Source: Limnothrix sp. FACHB-406
Lineage (GTDB): Bacteria > Cyanobacteriota > Cyanobacteriia > CACIAM-69d
Reading direction: 5' to 3'
Length of the DNA stretch: 64,000 nt
NCBI RefSeq assembly: GCF_014698235.1
Contig: NZ_JACJSP010000003.1
Coordinates: forward strand, 310,001 to 374,000
Shown: positions 15,347 to 20,930 of the stretch, piece after piece
Layout: the number at the start of each line of letters is the position of its first letter
Numbering within the stretch: position 1 is the stretch's first letter
Position numbers and translations under genes: made by a program
Notes under the pieces: model-generated
Seen by the model: the letters and a program-made list of their open reading frames with translations, nothing else
What the model was told of the DNA's origin: nothing
Database searches by the model: none

Positions 15347-17833
15347 CTAGCTCACGGCAGCCACAGCCTGGGAGAGGGCCGGGCTGGGAATGTCTTGATG
15401 CATCGGGATTTCGATGTGAAACGCCGTACCACGCCCCACTTGCGAATCAAACCAGAGCCGACCTCGATGGGTTTGATGAATCACCTGGTGACTGATTGAA
15501 AGCCCCAAACCTGTACCTTTGCCCACGGGTTTTGAAGTCACAAAGGAATTGAACACTTGGCTCTGCAAATGGTCAGGAATGCCACTGCCGTTATCGGCGA
15601 TCGTGATCCGAATCAGCCGTCCTTCACAGAGGCGCGTTTGAATCCGAATAATGCCAGGATTTTCCCGAATTTCATCAAAAGTCCAACCGGATTGGGATTC
15701 CTCGATCGCGTCGATCGCATTGCTCAAAAGGTTCATGAACACCTGATTCAGAGGCCCTAAACAGCATTCCACCAAGGGCAAATCCGCATATTCCCGTAAT
15801 ACTTGAATTTCTGGCCGCTCGCTGGAAGCCTTAATGCGATGGTTCAAGATAATTAAGGTGCTGTCGAGGCCCTCATGGATATTGGTGACCTGAAAATCGT
15901 TGTCATTGGCTCGCGAGAAGGATCGGAGCGATCGCACGATATCTCGTACACGCTCGGATCCCAACCGCATCGATCGCACCATTTGGGTCAAATCATCTAA
16001 CAGAAAATCAGGATCAACTTCCTCCAACACCTCTTGTAACTCTTCTGGCACTTCGGGAAAGTAATGTTGATAGCTGCGAATAATGCGGCCCAAATCCTGA
16101 ACATAGTGGCCCAGGTGTTCCACATTGCCGGAAATAAAGCTAATGGGATTATTAATTTCGTGGGCTACCCCTGCCAGCATTTGCCCAACCGCCGCCATTT
16201 TTTCGCTTTGAATCACCTGAAGTTGGGTATCTTTCAGTTGATTCAGGGTATTTTGCAAAGAGCTAAGCGAGGTTTCCAATTGCCGATACATGGCCTGGAA
16301 AGCATCTTGCAAAAGATCAATCTCATCGAGTCCCAGGGTGGGATCGATCGGGGCGGCGGGCTTGGTTGCTAAGGCTGCGGAAGGGTCGATCGACCCCACC
16401 GCGCCCGCTCCTGCGCCGGGAAAGGGCGGCGCGGCGCTGGCTAAGGTAGCCATCGGGGCGATCGATTCGGGCGATCGCGCCGACTCCGGCCCCTTGGGAT
16501 TGCTGGGGATGCCACCTGCCGGGGGCGATGTTTCCTCTTCATTGGTAATTCCGCTGGAAAGCAGCGCCATTTGGCTGCTGTGAACCAGTTCCCGGCAGCC
16601 ATCAATCATCGGCTTCAAGCGCTGATTCAACCGGTGTACGAAAAACCAAATGCTGCCCAACAGCACCAAACTGGCCACTAAGCTGGTTCCCAAGGCCGTT
16701 TGAAAAATGGGGGCAAACAGTCGGCGGCGCGGCACCACCGCCACCATCATCCAGTCCGTTCCCGCGATCGGGCGATAGGCCAAAAACTCAGCGGGAGTTG
16801 TCCGAAAACCCAACCGAGATTGGCGAATTTTGGGCCAAATTTGTTCCAGGGAGGGAATTTTCTGGTAGCTCGATAGGCCCGTGGCCCGCTGCGGATCCGG
16901 TGGATAGGCCAGCAGTTCCCCCTCATAACTCAGCAGCACGAAATAGCCGTCCTGTCCCAGCACCGGCCGCGCCAAACGTTCACTGAGATTGGTAATGTCA
17001 ATATCCACCACCGTGGATCCCACCTTGTGGCGATCGCGACTGCGCACCGGACTCAGCAGCGTCACCAGCACCTGTTGATTCCAGCGGTAGGGCTTGAGCC
17101 ACCTTGGCTCCGCTGCACTTGCCTCCTTGGGAGACACCAGGCGAGCTTCCGAAGGGGTCAGCCGCTCCGTCAGGGATTCGGCGCGATCGAGTTGGGCCAA
17201 GCGATCGGGGGTTGAAGGCGTGGCTGTGGGCGATGGAGTGGAAGGGGGAATGCCATCGCGGATCAACACATAGGGCGGAGCCAGCCGCTTATGGATCATG
17301 CTTGGCTCCGAAAAAGCGGTTTTCGGTTCCGACACCGTGGATCGGGGGCTAGTAGGCGTGGGCTGCGATCGCCCCAGTTCCGAAACCCGGTTTACCAACC
17401 GCTGCGGCACGATCGAATAATACGGATCGAACTGCTCCCGGCTCTTCAGCAGGGCAAACGGTTCCTGTTGCAACCCCAAGCCCGCCACCAGAGGCGGCCG
17501 GTTTTTCAAAAATTCCAAAATAATCTGTTCACAGCTTTGGGCGATCGCCGCCTCATCCTGGCCCAGTCGGCTGACCTCATAGACAGCAACTCCGAACCCA
17601 TCCGCAAATTCTTCCACCTGCTTCAGATCGCTTTCGAGGCCTTGCACCTCAATCCTCAGGGTTTTTTGAATCTCATCAACCGTCTGATCCTTCAGCAGGT
17701 TGTAAGTAATCCCGGTCATGATGCCCAGCGTTGACAAAATGCCCAGCATCGTCCACAAGAGCATCTGAGCACCAATGGAAGAAAGCCTCGTGGCCTTCAG
17801 AATCAGTAGCAGTTCAAAGACGCGATGTCTCAT
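15347..17833 (-). CDS. sensor histidine kinase with extracytoplasmic sensor domain
   Basis: From ATG at 17833 the protein has 828 residues. The layout is a membrane helix (about 20-42), an extracytoplasmic Cache-like sensor region (about 45-370), and a second helix (about 378-402). A coiled-coil linker and HisKA follow with the phospho-accepting His in GVAHEINNPISF (about residue 558), then HATPase_c with an N box (NLLSNAIDAI), G1 (IADNGSGIP) and G2 (GKGTGLGLSIS). The frame continues upstream into the adjacent tnpB element, but this part is element sequence and not protein. The start codon lies 3 bp from the element end, and GGGAGG inside the element (17844-17849) sits 10 bases before the ATG. 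No cognate regulator adjoins it. Confidence 0.9.
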   Translation of the reverse strand: MRHRVFELLLILKATRLSSIGAQMLLWTMLGILSTLGIMTGITYNLLKDQTVDEIQKTLRIEVQGLESDLKQVEEFADGFGVAVYEVSRLGQDEAAIAQSCEQIILEFLKNRPPLVAGLGLQQEPFALLKSREQFDPYYSIVPQRLVNRVSELGRSQPTPTSPRSTVSEPKTAFSEPSMIHKRLAPPYVLIRDGIPPSTPSPTATPSTPDRLAQLDRAESLTERLTPSEARLVSPKEASAAEPRWLKPYRWNQQVLVTLLSPVRSRDRHKVGSTVVDIDITNLSERLARPVLGQDGYFVLLSYEGELLAYPPDPQRATGLSSYQKIPSLEQIWPKIRQSRLGFRTTPAEFLAYRPIAGTDWMMVAVVPRRRLFAPIFQTALGTSLVASLVLLGSIWFFVHRLNQRLKPMIDGCRELVHSSQMALLSSGITNEEETSPPAGGIPSNPKGPESARSPESIAPMATLASAAPPFPGAGAGAVGSIDPSAALATKPAAPIDPTLGLDEIDLLQDAFQAMYRQLETSLSSLQNTLNQLKDTQLQVIQSEKMAAVGQMLAGVAHEINNPISFISGNVEHLGHYVQDLGRIIRSYQHYFPEVPEELQEVLEEVDPDFLLDDLTQMVRSMRLGSERVRDIVRSLRSFSRANDNDFQVTNIHEGLDSTLIILNHRIKASSERPEIQVLREYADLPLVECCLGPLNQVFMNLLSNAIDAIEESQSGWTFDEIRENPGIIRIQTRLCEGRLIRITIADNGSGIPDHLQSQVFNSFVTSKPVGKGTGLGLSISHQVIHQTHRGRLWFDSQVGRGTAFHIEIPMHQDIPSPALSQAVAAVS

Positions 17834-17960
17834 GTGTTGACATCCTCCCTGTCCTAAAGGAGCGTGGATTCCGGCCCTAGGCAAACAACCGAAGTTGCTC
17901 GACTAGACCACGGGTTGACGCTTCATCGGCTGCCACCAGCGAACTGGATTTACGCTGGCC
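17817..17960 (-). ncRNA. predicted omega-RNA (reRNA) of the tnpB element
   Basis: By analogy with characterised tnpB elements, a guide RNA should overlap the 3' end of tnpB and the right end of the element. Here it would finish at ...GTCAA (17837) and continue into about 16-20 bases of flanking DNA as guide. That guide begins CACATGAGACATCGCG and contains the kinase start codon. The 5' limit is a guess, and no expression evidence is available. Confidence 0.45.
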
Positions 17961-19155
17961 TCCACGTCCGTTTTGAGTCTCGGACTGCCCGCCCGCGACT
18001 TGGATATTGATTGCGGCATTCACATCGCGATCATGTACCGCACCACAGTGCATACACGTCCACTCGCGTACATCAAGGGGTTTCTTGCCGCCCAATTGAC
18101 CACAAGATGAACAACGCTGGCTAGTCGGTTCCCATCGGCTAATCACCTGGAAATCCCGCCCATAGCGAGTTGCTTTTCCCTCGATCATTTGACGGAAGCT
18201 GTACCAGCCAGCATCCGAAATTGCCCGCGCCAACTTGCGATTTTTCACCATGCCCGACACATTCAAATCTTCCAGAACGATCGCTTGGTTCTCGCGAACG
18301 ATTCGGGTTGATAACTTGTGCAGGAAGTCGGTTCGTTGATCCTTGATGCGGGCGTGAATCCGGGCCACCTTGCGGCGGGCTAGATATCGGCGCTTGCTGC
18401 CCTTAACCTTGCGGCTGAGGGATTTTTGAGCACGGCGCAATCGCTTGAGGGATTTGGCTAGAGGCTTGGGACTTCGTACCTTTTCACCCGTGGACAGAGT
18501 GGCAAAGGTGGTCAATCCTAAGTCGATGCCAACTCCATTGTTGATAGCCTTCAGAGCGATCGGATCCACTTCACAGACAAACGATGCAAAGTAGTGATCG
18601 GCTGCATCCTTGATGATCGTCACTGATGATGGATCCGATGGCAGTTCTCTTGACCACTTGACCCGCACACAACCGATCTTGGCTAAGTAAACCGAGTTGG
18701 GTTTAACCGAAAAACCGTTAGTTGTGAAGCGAATGGATTGAGTTGAGTGTTTCTTTTTGAACTTCGGAAACCCAACCTTGCGGCCTTTCCGCTCACCCTT
18801 CAAGCTTTTGAAGAAGTTACGAAAAGCCAGATGGGCATCTTGCAAGGATTGAACTAACGGTACAGATGCAACTTCCGATAGCCATTCACGTTCAACGGTT
18901 AGCTTGGCTTGGGTAATCACCCGTTTCTGAATTTCAGTATCGCTAACTTTCTCCCCTTGCTGATAGAGGTCTTGACGCAATCGAATTGCATCGTTGTAGA
19001 CCACACGAGCACAACCGAACGTCTTCGCCAGCATTAATCTTTGCAGGCGATTGGGATAAATTCGGTAGCGAAATCGTGCTCTCATAACTAACATTATAAG
19101 TGGGGTTGATCGAAAAAGCCGCCCTAGAAGAGCGGGGCTTGTACCCTTTCTTTTG
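17837..19155 (-). mobile_element. tnpB-only IS200/IS605-type element (IS1341-like)
   Basis: The boundaries are read from end features. On the minus strand the left end follows TTGAC (19156-19160), a plausible target-adjacent motif. The right end reads GCTCCTTTAGGACAGGGAGG, then ATGTCAA ending at 17837, the typical 3' end of tnpB-associated reRNA/omega-RNA. A GC hairpin (GCCCCGCTCTT/GGGCGGC region, about 19106-19135) lies inside the left end. There is no tnpA and no target duplication, as expected for the family. Exact ends need an empty-site comparison. Confidence 0.75.
17877..19085 (-). CDS. tnpB: TnpB-family RNA-guided nuclease (IS200/IS605 accessory protein)
   Basis: The 402-residue protein starts at ATG 19085 (MRARFRYRIYPNRLQ), the standard N-terminus of the family; the longer frame upstream belongs to the element's left end. 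An N-terminal helix-turn-helix/OrfB region leads to a RuvC-like nuclease. Its three acidic residues are all present: GIDLGLTTFA, VLEDLNVSGM and HDRDVNAAINI. A CxxC...CxxC zinc ribbon (CSSCGQ, CMHCG) lies between the last two. TnpB proteins cut DNA guided by an RNA made from the element's right end, next to a short TTGA-type motif. No frameshift is seen, so it may be active. Confidence 0.92.
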   Translation of the reverse strand: MRARFRYRIYPNRLQRLMLAKTFGCARVVYNDAIRLRQDLYQQGEKVSDTEIQKRVITQAKLTVEREWLSEVASVPLVQSLQDAHLAFRNFFKSLKGERKGRKVGFPKFKKKHSTQSIRFTTNGFSVKPNSVYLAKIGCVRVKWSRELPSDPSSVTIIKDAADHYFASFVCEVDPIALKAINNGVGIDLGLTTFATLSTGEKVRSPKPLAKSLKRLRRAQKSLSRKVKGSKRRYLARRKVARIHARIKDQRTDFLHKLSTRIVRENQAIVLEDLNVSGMVKNRKLARAISDAGWYSFRQMIEGKATRYGRDFQVISRWEPTSQRCSSCGQLGGKKPLDVREWTCMHCGAVHDRDVNAAINIQVAGGQSETQNGRGGQRKSSSLVAADEASTRGLVEQLRLFA

Positions 19156-19906
19156 GTCAATGACATGACCATCACTGCAAAACTAGGTAATCTCGGGGTG
19201 CGATGGCATTACAATGCCTCGGCTCTCTCGACAACTACATATTTCCTATATCTCAATCGAACTTTGCAGATTCGGGAAACTTCAGAACTTTCTGACCCAT
19301 TTCATCCTAATGACCTCATCCCAATGACGGACTTTTGATGAAATTTCGGCTAAATTTATCCCAAAAAATGCATCTTTGGCGACAATTAGCGACAAAACAG
19401 ACCATTGGCAACTGAATAATAAACCCAATGATTTAGGTTTTTTCTCGATTGCCATTGTGAAGGGTGACGCAATGATGGTCAGGACAGAAATTGCCTAATG
19501 CTAATTCGCTAGGCCTTTCTGCAAATCGACTAAAACCAAAAAGAATTATTGAGAAATGACTGCGTTTTTGAATCATCTCTTAAATTAATCATTCTTGAAA
19601 TTAGTCTTTTTTGAAATTATTGGTTCACTCTGAATTTACTCCTAAATTTACTCCTCATCAAACTTCCTCAAGATTGACAAATTGATCCCAAGGACTGGTG
19701 CAATTGACTGTTGCCTGAAAACCACCGAGTTAGGGCATTAGCTAAACGGTCTGGAATGCACCCATGGGGAGTAGAAAGGCCAATTTGATTTATCCAAAAT
19801 TCCCCTTAGCTTAGGAGATCACCTGGACTGATCTTGTATTCAAGACTACCGTATTCCGATGATGATGCTTGGGATTCGCGCCCCAGGTTTCACGAGGTCT
19901 TGCGCG
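19156..19906. other. AT-rich spacer upstream of the tnpB element
   Basis: About 750 bases without a supportable gene. An open frame on the plus strand at 19153-19338 is short and begins within the insertion junction, so it is not called. If the element was inserted between the kinase gene and its promoter, the original kinase promoter would lie here. I saw no clear promoter pair. Confidence 0.5.
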
Positions 19907-20197
19907 AAGGATGCCTGAAAAGCCAGAGTTGGCCGCGAGAAAACGGGCTACCTTTGCTGAGTCAACTTCGCTGATTCAACATTGACGATTGGTTTTTGAA
20001 GTCCCGATCGACCGCCCGATCGATCGCCCCAACATTTCCCCCTGAACGCCCTCGGGAATCCTGAGGGGATGGGCGAAAAAGCCAAATCGGCGACCTTGTG
20101 GGTGGCATCGATCGACGAAGACAAGGGACTTAAGCCCCTTGCCCTGATAGCTACTAGTCCCTTGGCAAGTGCCCCAAGTTACTGCTCAGGCATCCTC
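19907..20197. repeat. Small inverted-repeat (MITE-like) element with CTTAAG core
   Basis: The left end AAGGATGCCTGA (19907-19918) is matched in inverted orientation by TCAGGCATCCT (20186-20196). Inside, at 20122-20141, lies CAAGGGACTTAAGCCCCTTG, one base from a perfect 20-bp palindrome that recurs at 35685 and 48316. No transposase is encoded. It abuts the 3' end of the response regulator gene. Confidence 0.6.
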
Positions 20198-20207
20198 TTA
20201 GAACATC

Positions 20208-20930
20208 CTATTGAGCCGGTGGTGCAGCATCGGGAGGATTAAATCGATAACCAACTCCGCGCACCGTTTGGATAATTTGGGTTTTCGCTCCTGCACTTTC
20301 CATCTTTTTGCGAATTTGACCAATGTGGACATCAACAACCCGCTGGTCGCCCACATAGTCGTAATCCCAAACTCTTTGCAAAAGTTCTTGGCGATTCCAG
20401 ACCCGTCCTGGATGATTGGCCAAAAAATGCAAAATATTGAACTCTAAGGCCGTTAGGGTAATTAATTGATCATCAAGGGTGACTTCGTGGCGTTCCGGAT
20501 CGATGATTAAGCTGCCAAAATTAAGGGAAGGTTGCGGTAAATCACGCGGAGAATTGCCCCGCCCCCGCTTGAGAATGGCACTAACGCGCACCCCTAATTC
20601 CATCAAGCTAAAGGGTTTTGTCAAGTAATCATCTGCCCCTTGACGAAACCCTTTAATTTTATCGGCTTCATCGGAACGACTGGTGAGCATCAAAACGTAG
20701 ACACCCGTTTTGGCTTGCATTTCCCGACACAGTTCGTACCCCGTTGCATCCGGTAGATTGACATCCAAAATCACCAGATCGGGTTGAAACTTTTCAAAGA
20801 GCGCTAAGGCCGTCTTCCCGTCAGGAGCCGACTCCATTTGATATTGCTGCTTGCTTAAGAAGCGATGGATCAACTTTCGGATCGCTGGATCGTCATCCAC
20901 AACCAGCAGCTTTGGAGGCGTGTCAGTCAT
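20208..20930 (-). CDS. OmpR/PhoB-family response regulator
   Basis: The 240-residue protein has a receiver domain (about residues 7-120) with the acidic pair DDD, phospho-acceptor Asp in DLVILDVNLP, conserved Thr in VLMLTSRSDE and Lys in DDYLTKPFS. A winged-helix DNA-binding domain (about 135-232) follows, ending in VWDYDYVGDQRVVDVHIGQIRKKM...TVRGVGYRF. It is therefore a two-component transcription factor. It resembles cyanobacterial regulators of the RpaB/Rre type but is not clearly one of them. No kinase gene is adjacent; the nearest is on the far side of the tnpB element. The upstream region carries four TTGTCCAA boxes. Confidence 0.92.
   Translation of the reverse strand: MTDTPPKLLVVDDDPAIRKLIHRFLSKQQYQMESAPDGKTALALFEKFQPDLVILDVNLPDATGYELCREMQAKTGVYVLMLTSRSDEADKIKGFRQGADDYLTKPFSLMELGVRVSAILKRGRGNSPRDLPQPSLNFGSLIIDPERHEVTLDDQLITLTALEFNILHFLANHPGRVWNRQELLQRVWDYDYVGDQRVVDVHIGQIRKKMESAGAKTQIIQTVRGVGYRFNPPDAAPPAQ

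Follow-up and report, generated by a model that had tools for sequence, protein, structure and literature searches.

The TnpB protein of ISDra2, an element of the IS200/IS605 family from Deinococcus radiodurans, uses a reRNA whose last ~16 nt are provided by the flank of the element, and its target-adjacent motif (TAM) is the target of insertion (PMC8612924). TnpB can process the 5' end of its omega-RNA out of its own mRNA (PMC10278001), and its action as a gene drive among DNA copies has already been described for plasmids (PMC11870625). TldR proteins, which are TnpB-derived RNA-guided transcription factors, are nuclease-dead and act on other promoters (PMC13418256).

Here we describe a locus of Limnothrix sp. 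FACHB-406 where a tnpB element stops 3 bp short of the ATG of a sensor histidine kinase gene. The features of this locus are listed in Table 1, and the whole stretch of 64,000 nucleotides that was analysed is referred to as the window. As in ISDra2, the element is inserted 3' of a TTGAY-type pentamer, its guide is expected to derive from the right flank, and its TnpB is homologous, with conserved RuvC residues. However, the pentamer is YTGAC rather than the TTGAT of ISDra2, and the element lacks tnpA; the single weak match to a Y1 transposase elsewhere in the window genome points to a tnpB-only element with no evident current partner. No structural difference distinguishes it from the IS1341-type elements, which likewise carry tnpB alone between IS605-type ends, are multicopy and have a conserved right-end hairpin; what sets the window copy apart is its distance to a start codon and a weakening of this hairpin. 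It resembles the TldR systems in that its predicted guide overlaps the start region of a gene, but it has retained the nuclease residues, and the window genome was found to contain no second target. We regard it as highly probable that an ordinary tnpB-only element of the IS605 type has altered the kinase leader by accident and that its guide protects the site at which it inserted.

Table 1. Features of the kinase locus and of the inserted element, in window coordinates.
Feature	Position	Strand	Basis
Sensor histidine kinase, 828 aa	15347..17833	minus	HisKA and HATPase_c above cut-off, dCache below cut-off (Pfam); start kept in relatives
Predicted 16-nt omega-RNA guide CACATGAGACATCGCG	17821..17836	minus	ISDra2 rule (PMC8612924); exact TTGAC + guide match in G001
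GATGTC/GACATC inverted repeat across the junction, start codon in loop	17824..17844	minus	Folds
tnpB-only IS605-type element, 1,319 bp	17837..19155	minus	Ends match sister copies at unrelated flanks; absent at G001 locus
GGGAGG, SD-like motif, 10 nt before ATG	17844..17849	minus	Sequence; -10.9 kcal/mol with anti-SD
Right-end hairpin region, predicted to be weakened by two derived substitutions	17847..17867	minus	Copy alignment; folds
tnpB, 403 aa from ATG at 19088	17877..19088	minus	RuvC D/E/D and zinc-finger residues present; Pfam; ISDra2 TnpB alignment
Left-end hairpin followed by T-run, terminator-like	19113..19135	minus	Pattern scan, not above shuffle expectation; conserved in sister copies
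TTGAC target and presumed TAM at left end	19156..19160	minus	Sequence; YTGAC flanks sister-copy left ends
Response regulator	20208..20930	minus	Upstream of kinase; Pfam; 99.6% identical in L201 (G001); order same in G001

The element and its TnpB protein

The limits of the element that had been proposed in a sequence-only reading of this DNA were borne out by sister copies in the same genome, the ends of which agree with those in the window; a full copy on contig C2 has the same length, starts with CAAAAGAAAGGG after CTGAC and ends with GGGGAGGATGTCAA. Two further left ends are preceded by TTGAC or CTGAC. The left end CAAAAGAAAGGG is common to the copies of this genome, one of which has CAAAATAAAGGG instead, and the right end GGG(G/A)AGGATGTCAA is shared by copies at unrelated flanks. 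GGGGAGGATGTCAA is the conserved right end of the element family wherever it is inserted. Because two right-end halves and two left-end halves of the element are found at contig ends, the genome contains about four close copies. In the sister copies, subterminal hairpins are present at both ends, the right one being weakened in the window copy. Insertion occurs 3' of a short target of fixed sequence, which is not duplicated, as seen from the YTGAC before the left ends and from the intact TTGAC and right flank in an uninserted relative (see below). A search of positions 17000-20300 against Rfam gave no real match.

In the tnpB product, Pfam identifies OrfB_IS605, Cas12f1-like_TNB and HTH_OrfB. 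ISDra2 TnpB (8bf8), the closest among natural solved proteins, aligns with an E-value of 6.5e-80 and with conservation of the RuvC residues D/E/D. Between the tnpB genes of the window and the C2 copy, 47 codons differ synonymously and 13 non-synonymously, a bias suggestive of selection at the protein level. With these RuvC residues intact, the window TnpB would be expected to act as a nuclease on the uninserted site.

The kinase start and the uninserted site in relatives

On the minus strand, the junction consists of GGGAGGATGTCAA (17849-17837), CAC and the kinase ATG (17833-17831), which is followed by AGACATCGCG; read across the junction, the strand is CCACGCTCCTTTAGGACAGGGAGGATGTCAA-CAC-ATGAGACATCGCG. 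The kinase reading frame is intact (17833-15347), and its ATG is located 43 nt downstream of the tnpB stop codon. The start peptide MRHRVFELLLILKATRLSSIGAQMLLW is identical in Limnothrix sp. CACIAM 69d (G001; 98% protein identity) and in a second relative, G002 (59%), in agreement with the start previously assigned to this gene. An N-terminal fusion from an in-frame TTG at 17884 was excluded because the kinase start is conserved in these relatives, and the ATG within GGAGGATG is in a different frame from the kinase.

The close relative G001 has the kinase locus without the element. The order of response regulator, intergenic region and kinase is the same as in the window, the two intergenic regions are 92% identical along a gap-free alignment of 828 bp, and the kinase DNA is 96% identical. 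The G001 leader reads CATTGAC CAATCAGCATCGCGTCTTCACCCCCTCTTGAC CACATGAG, and TTGACCACATGAGACATCGCG is present in G001 with zero mismatches. The comparison with an empty site, which had been proposed as a check, thus confirmed the part of the earlier claim that concerns the match of the 16-nt guide next to TTGAC, this match being perfect. It did not confirm that the joined window flanks represent the empty site: in G001, 32 bp are located between two TTGACs (CATTGAC-CAATCAGCATCGCGTCTTCACCCCCTCTTGAC-CACATG), whereas in the window the left flank extends only as far as the first TTGAC and the sequence resumes, in the right flank, after the second, so that 32 bp are missing and the joined flanks do not give the G001 sequence.

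The two TTGAC units of G001 form an imperfect direct repeat (0 of 2,000 shuffles scored as high), and the element's own left end extends this repeat to TTGACCAA, an arrangement in which slippage before or after insertion would yield exactly the missing 32 bp. When leaders were aligned to that of G002, the G001 leader with its 32 bp fitted weakly (shuffle p ~0.04) and the joined window flanks did not (p 0.86), which provides weak evidence that a loss from the window lineage, and not a gain in G001, probably accounts for the difference of 32 bp. Misassembly at the element locus was judged unlikely because the window flanks are contiguous in G001 except for these 32 bp. The 32 bp (within L201, 3960-4003), which are missing in the window, were also seen to be an imperfect direct repeat of the 5' end of the kinase gene. 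In addition, a stretch that follows the response regulator once in the window appears to be duplicated in the G001 intergenic region upstream of the kinase.

The predicted guide and its expected target

Following the ISDra2 rule, the guide of the window element would be CACATGAGACATCGCG, and it would include the kinase start codon. Preceded by TTGAC, this guide occurs once in G001, without a mismatch, as expected if TTGAC is the TAM and the uninserted kinase allele the likely target of TnpB; both views had been put forward from the sequence alone. In the window genome, the only site within 3 mismatches of TAM and guide is the filled site itself, which has GTCAA in place of TTGAC (3 mismatches). 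This contrast suggests that the RNP should cut uninserted alleles and spare its own site. The idea that the resident kinase could be silenced is not supported, since the filled site lacks the required TTGAC and the catalytic residues of TnpB are kept. It is conceivable that TnpB drives the spread of the element among the several chromosome copies of a cyanobacterium.

The Shine-Dalgarno-like motif and folding of the leader

The spacing of GGGAGG relative to the kinase ATG, as read from the sequence, is as had been claimed, and with its strong pairing to the anti-SD (Table 1) the motif is a candidate SD with workable spacing. Energy calculations detected no anti-SD pairing in the uninserted leaders of G001 and G002 or in the joined flanks, which upholds the view that the kinase would have no Shine-Dalgarno sequence without the element. 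However, window genes carry SD motifs hardly more often than expected from background, 13 of 43 passing the energy cut and 11 of 43 carrying an SD 4-mer, while 22% of random positions pass the same energy cut; cyanobacteria have been listed among the phyla with small fractions of SD genes (PMC5397173). GGGAGG belongs to the right end of nearly every copy examined. Because GGGGAGGATGTCAA is conserved in the family irrespective of the insertion site, the motif is a by-product of the element end that was not acquired for the kinase, and it may incidentally act as the kinase ribosome-binding site.

The stem of the sister copies, if placed before the window kinase, encloses the motif in a stable hairpin (-21.4 kcal/mol). 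This stem is broken in the window copy (-13.6 kcal/mol) by one derived change in each arm (element positions 1290 and 1305); in the remaining fold, GGGAG is still paired and the ATG is located in the loop of GATGTC/GACATC. The two substitutions are therefore predicted to weaken the terminal hairpin and might expose the SD motif. Since two changes in ~40 non-coding bases fit the 3% divergence of the copies elsewhere, decay explains them as well as adaptation does.

Placement of right ends beside start codons and its possible explanations

We searched 116 genomes of the class for exact matches to the right end and read 108 distinct junctions. The right-end 14-mer was present in 40 of these genomes and absent from 76. 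The terminal hairpin folds at 91 of the 108 junctions, the 17 other GGGGAGGATGTCAA matches being coding sequence or lacking the hairpin. A co-directional open reading frame of at least 100 codons starts within 12 nt of 2 of the 91 right ends, compared to 9 of 383 intergenic YTGAC sites, a null that was built on simple ORF calls and not on curated genes. The placement beside the kinase start is therefore real, but it recurs at about the rate predicted by chance and is not statistically special. An independent case of the same layout was found at L188 (1500-2346), where the right end precedes the ATG of a DUF975 gene by 1 nt, the GGGAGG-ATG spacer is 8 nt and an open frame of 391 codons lies upstream; at L179, the right end precedes a phosphorylase-superfamily gene by 8 nt. 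An excess within 30 nt of starts (12/91 versus 19/383, p=0.008) was set aside, because gene-disrupting insertions can mimic new starts and the copies are not independent.

In the explanation that we favour, the element would have inserted 3' of TTGAC in the kinase leader, and its omega-RNA would take the first ~16 nt past the right end as a guide, as in ISDra2, with inclusion of the kinase start codon by chance. Cleavage of TTGAC-flanked uninserted alleles by the RNP would then help to retain the element. We infer the production of omega-RNA, the cleavage, the read-through transcription and any effect on kinase expression. Some observations speak against so simple a course of events: the 32-bp loss indicates a locus history beyond a clean insertion, the window copy with its weakened hairpin may have lost the ability to transpose or to form the usual omega-RNA, and pairing of GATGTC at the scaffold end with GACATC in the guide could impair the RNP. 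It is possible, though rather unlikely, that the insertion was co-opted, the kinase being translated from the GGGAGG of the element after its own leader had been moved 1.3 kb upstream, with the SD exposed by the hairpin substitutions and perhaps with transcription reading through from tnpB. The absence of an SD in uninserted relatives, the -10.9 kcal/mol of the window leader, the derived changes in both hairpin arms, the intact kinase and the nearby tnpB stop would all suit such a history, but the near-background frequency of SD motifs among window genes, the fold that still pairs GGGAG and holds the ATG in a loop, and the agreement of the two changes with neutral decay argue against it.

We give very little credence to a feedback on kinase translation, in which TnpB and the omega-RNA would block or process the kinase leader on a tnpB-kinase read-through transcript. 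The start codon within the predicted guide and the known 5' processing of omega-RNA from the tnpB mRNA (PMC10278001) are in its favour, but the arrangement shows no sign of selection and is not enriched elsewhere (2/91 versus 9/383). Equally improbable is that the hairpin substitutions turned the right end into a working ribosome-binding site and that TnpB, by binding the omega-RNA or the kinase-leader RNA, tunes kinase translation; if true, the guide RNA of a mobile element would double as a regulated 5' UTR. The least credible of all is a domesticated repressor of the TldR type, in which a TnpB without nuclease activity would be guided to kinase alleles and silence them. The overlap of the guide with a gene start is in favour of such a repressor, but it is unsupported because the RuvC residues are intact and align with those of ISDra2 TnpB, and the sole match in its own genome within 3 mismatches is the filled site, which has no TAM. 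Returning to the accidental alteration of the leader by an ordinary element, this tnpB family is widespread in cyanobacteria and its conserved right end is strongly complementary to the anti-SD; therefore, wherever a copy inserts a few bases before a start codon, it supplies a candidate ribosome-binding site and places the start codon within the predicted guide. If functional, such an arrangement would offer a simple system in which to study cross-talk of guide-RNA formation with translation.

Lastly, in five genomes (L103, L104, L108, L115 and L157) GGGGAGGATGTCAA is followed by a conserved AGA(G/A)TATTACTT frame and apparently represents gene sequence rather than element ends. The right-end 14-mer is multicopy in some cyanobacteria, with 16 copies in G002, 21 in G034, 13 in G093 and 11 in G090.
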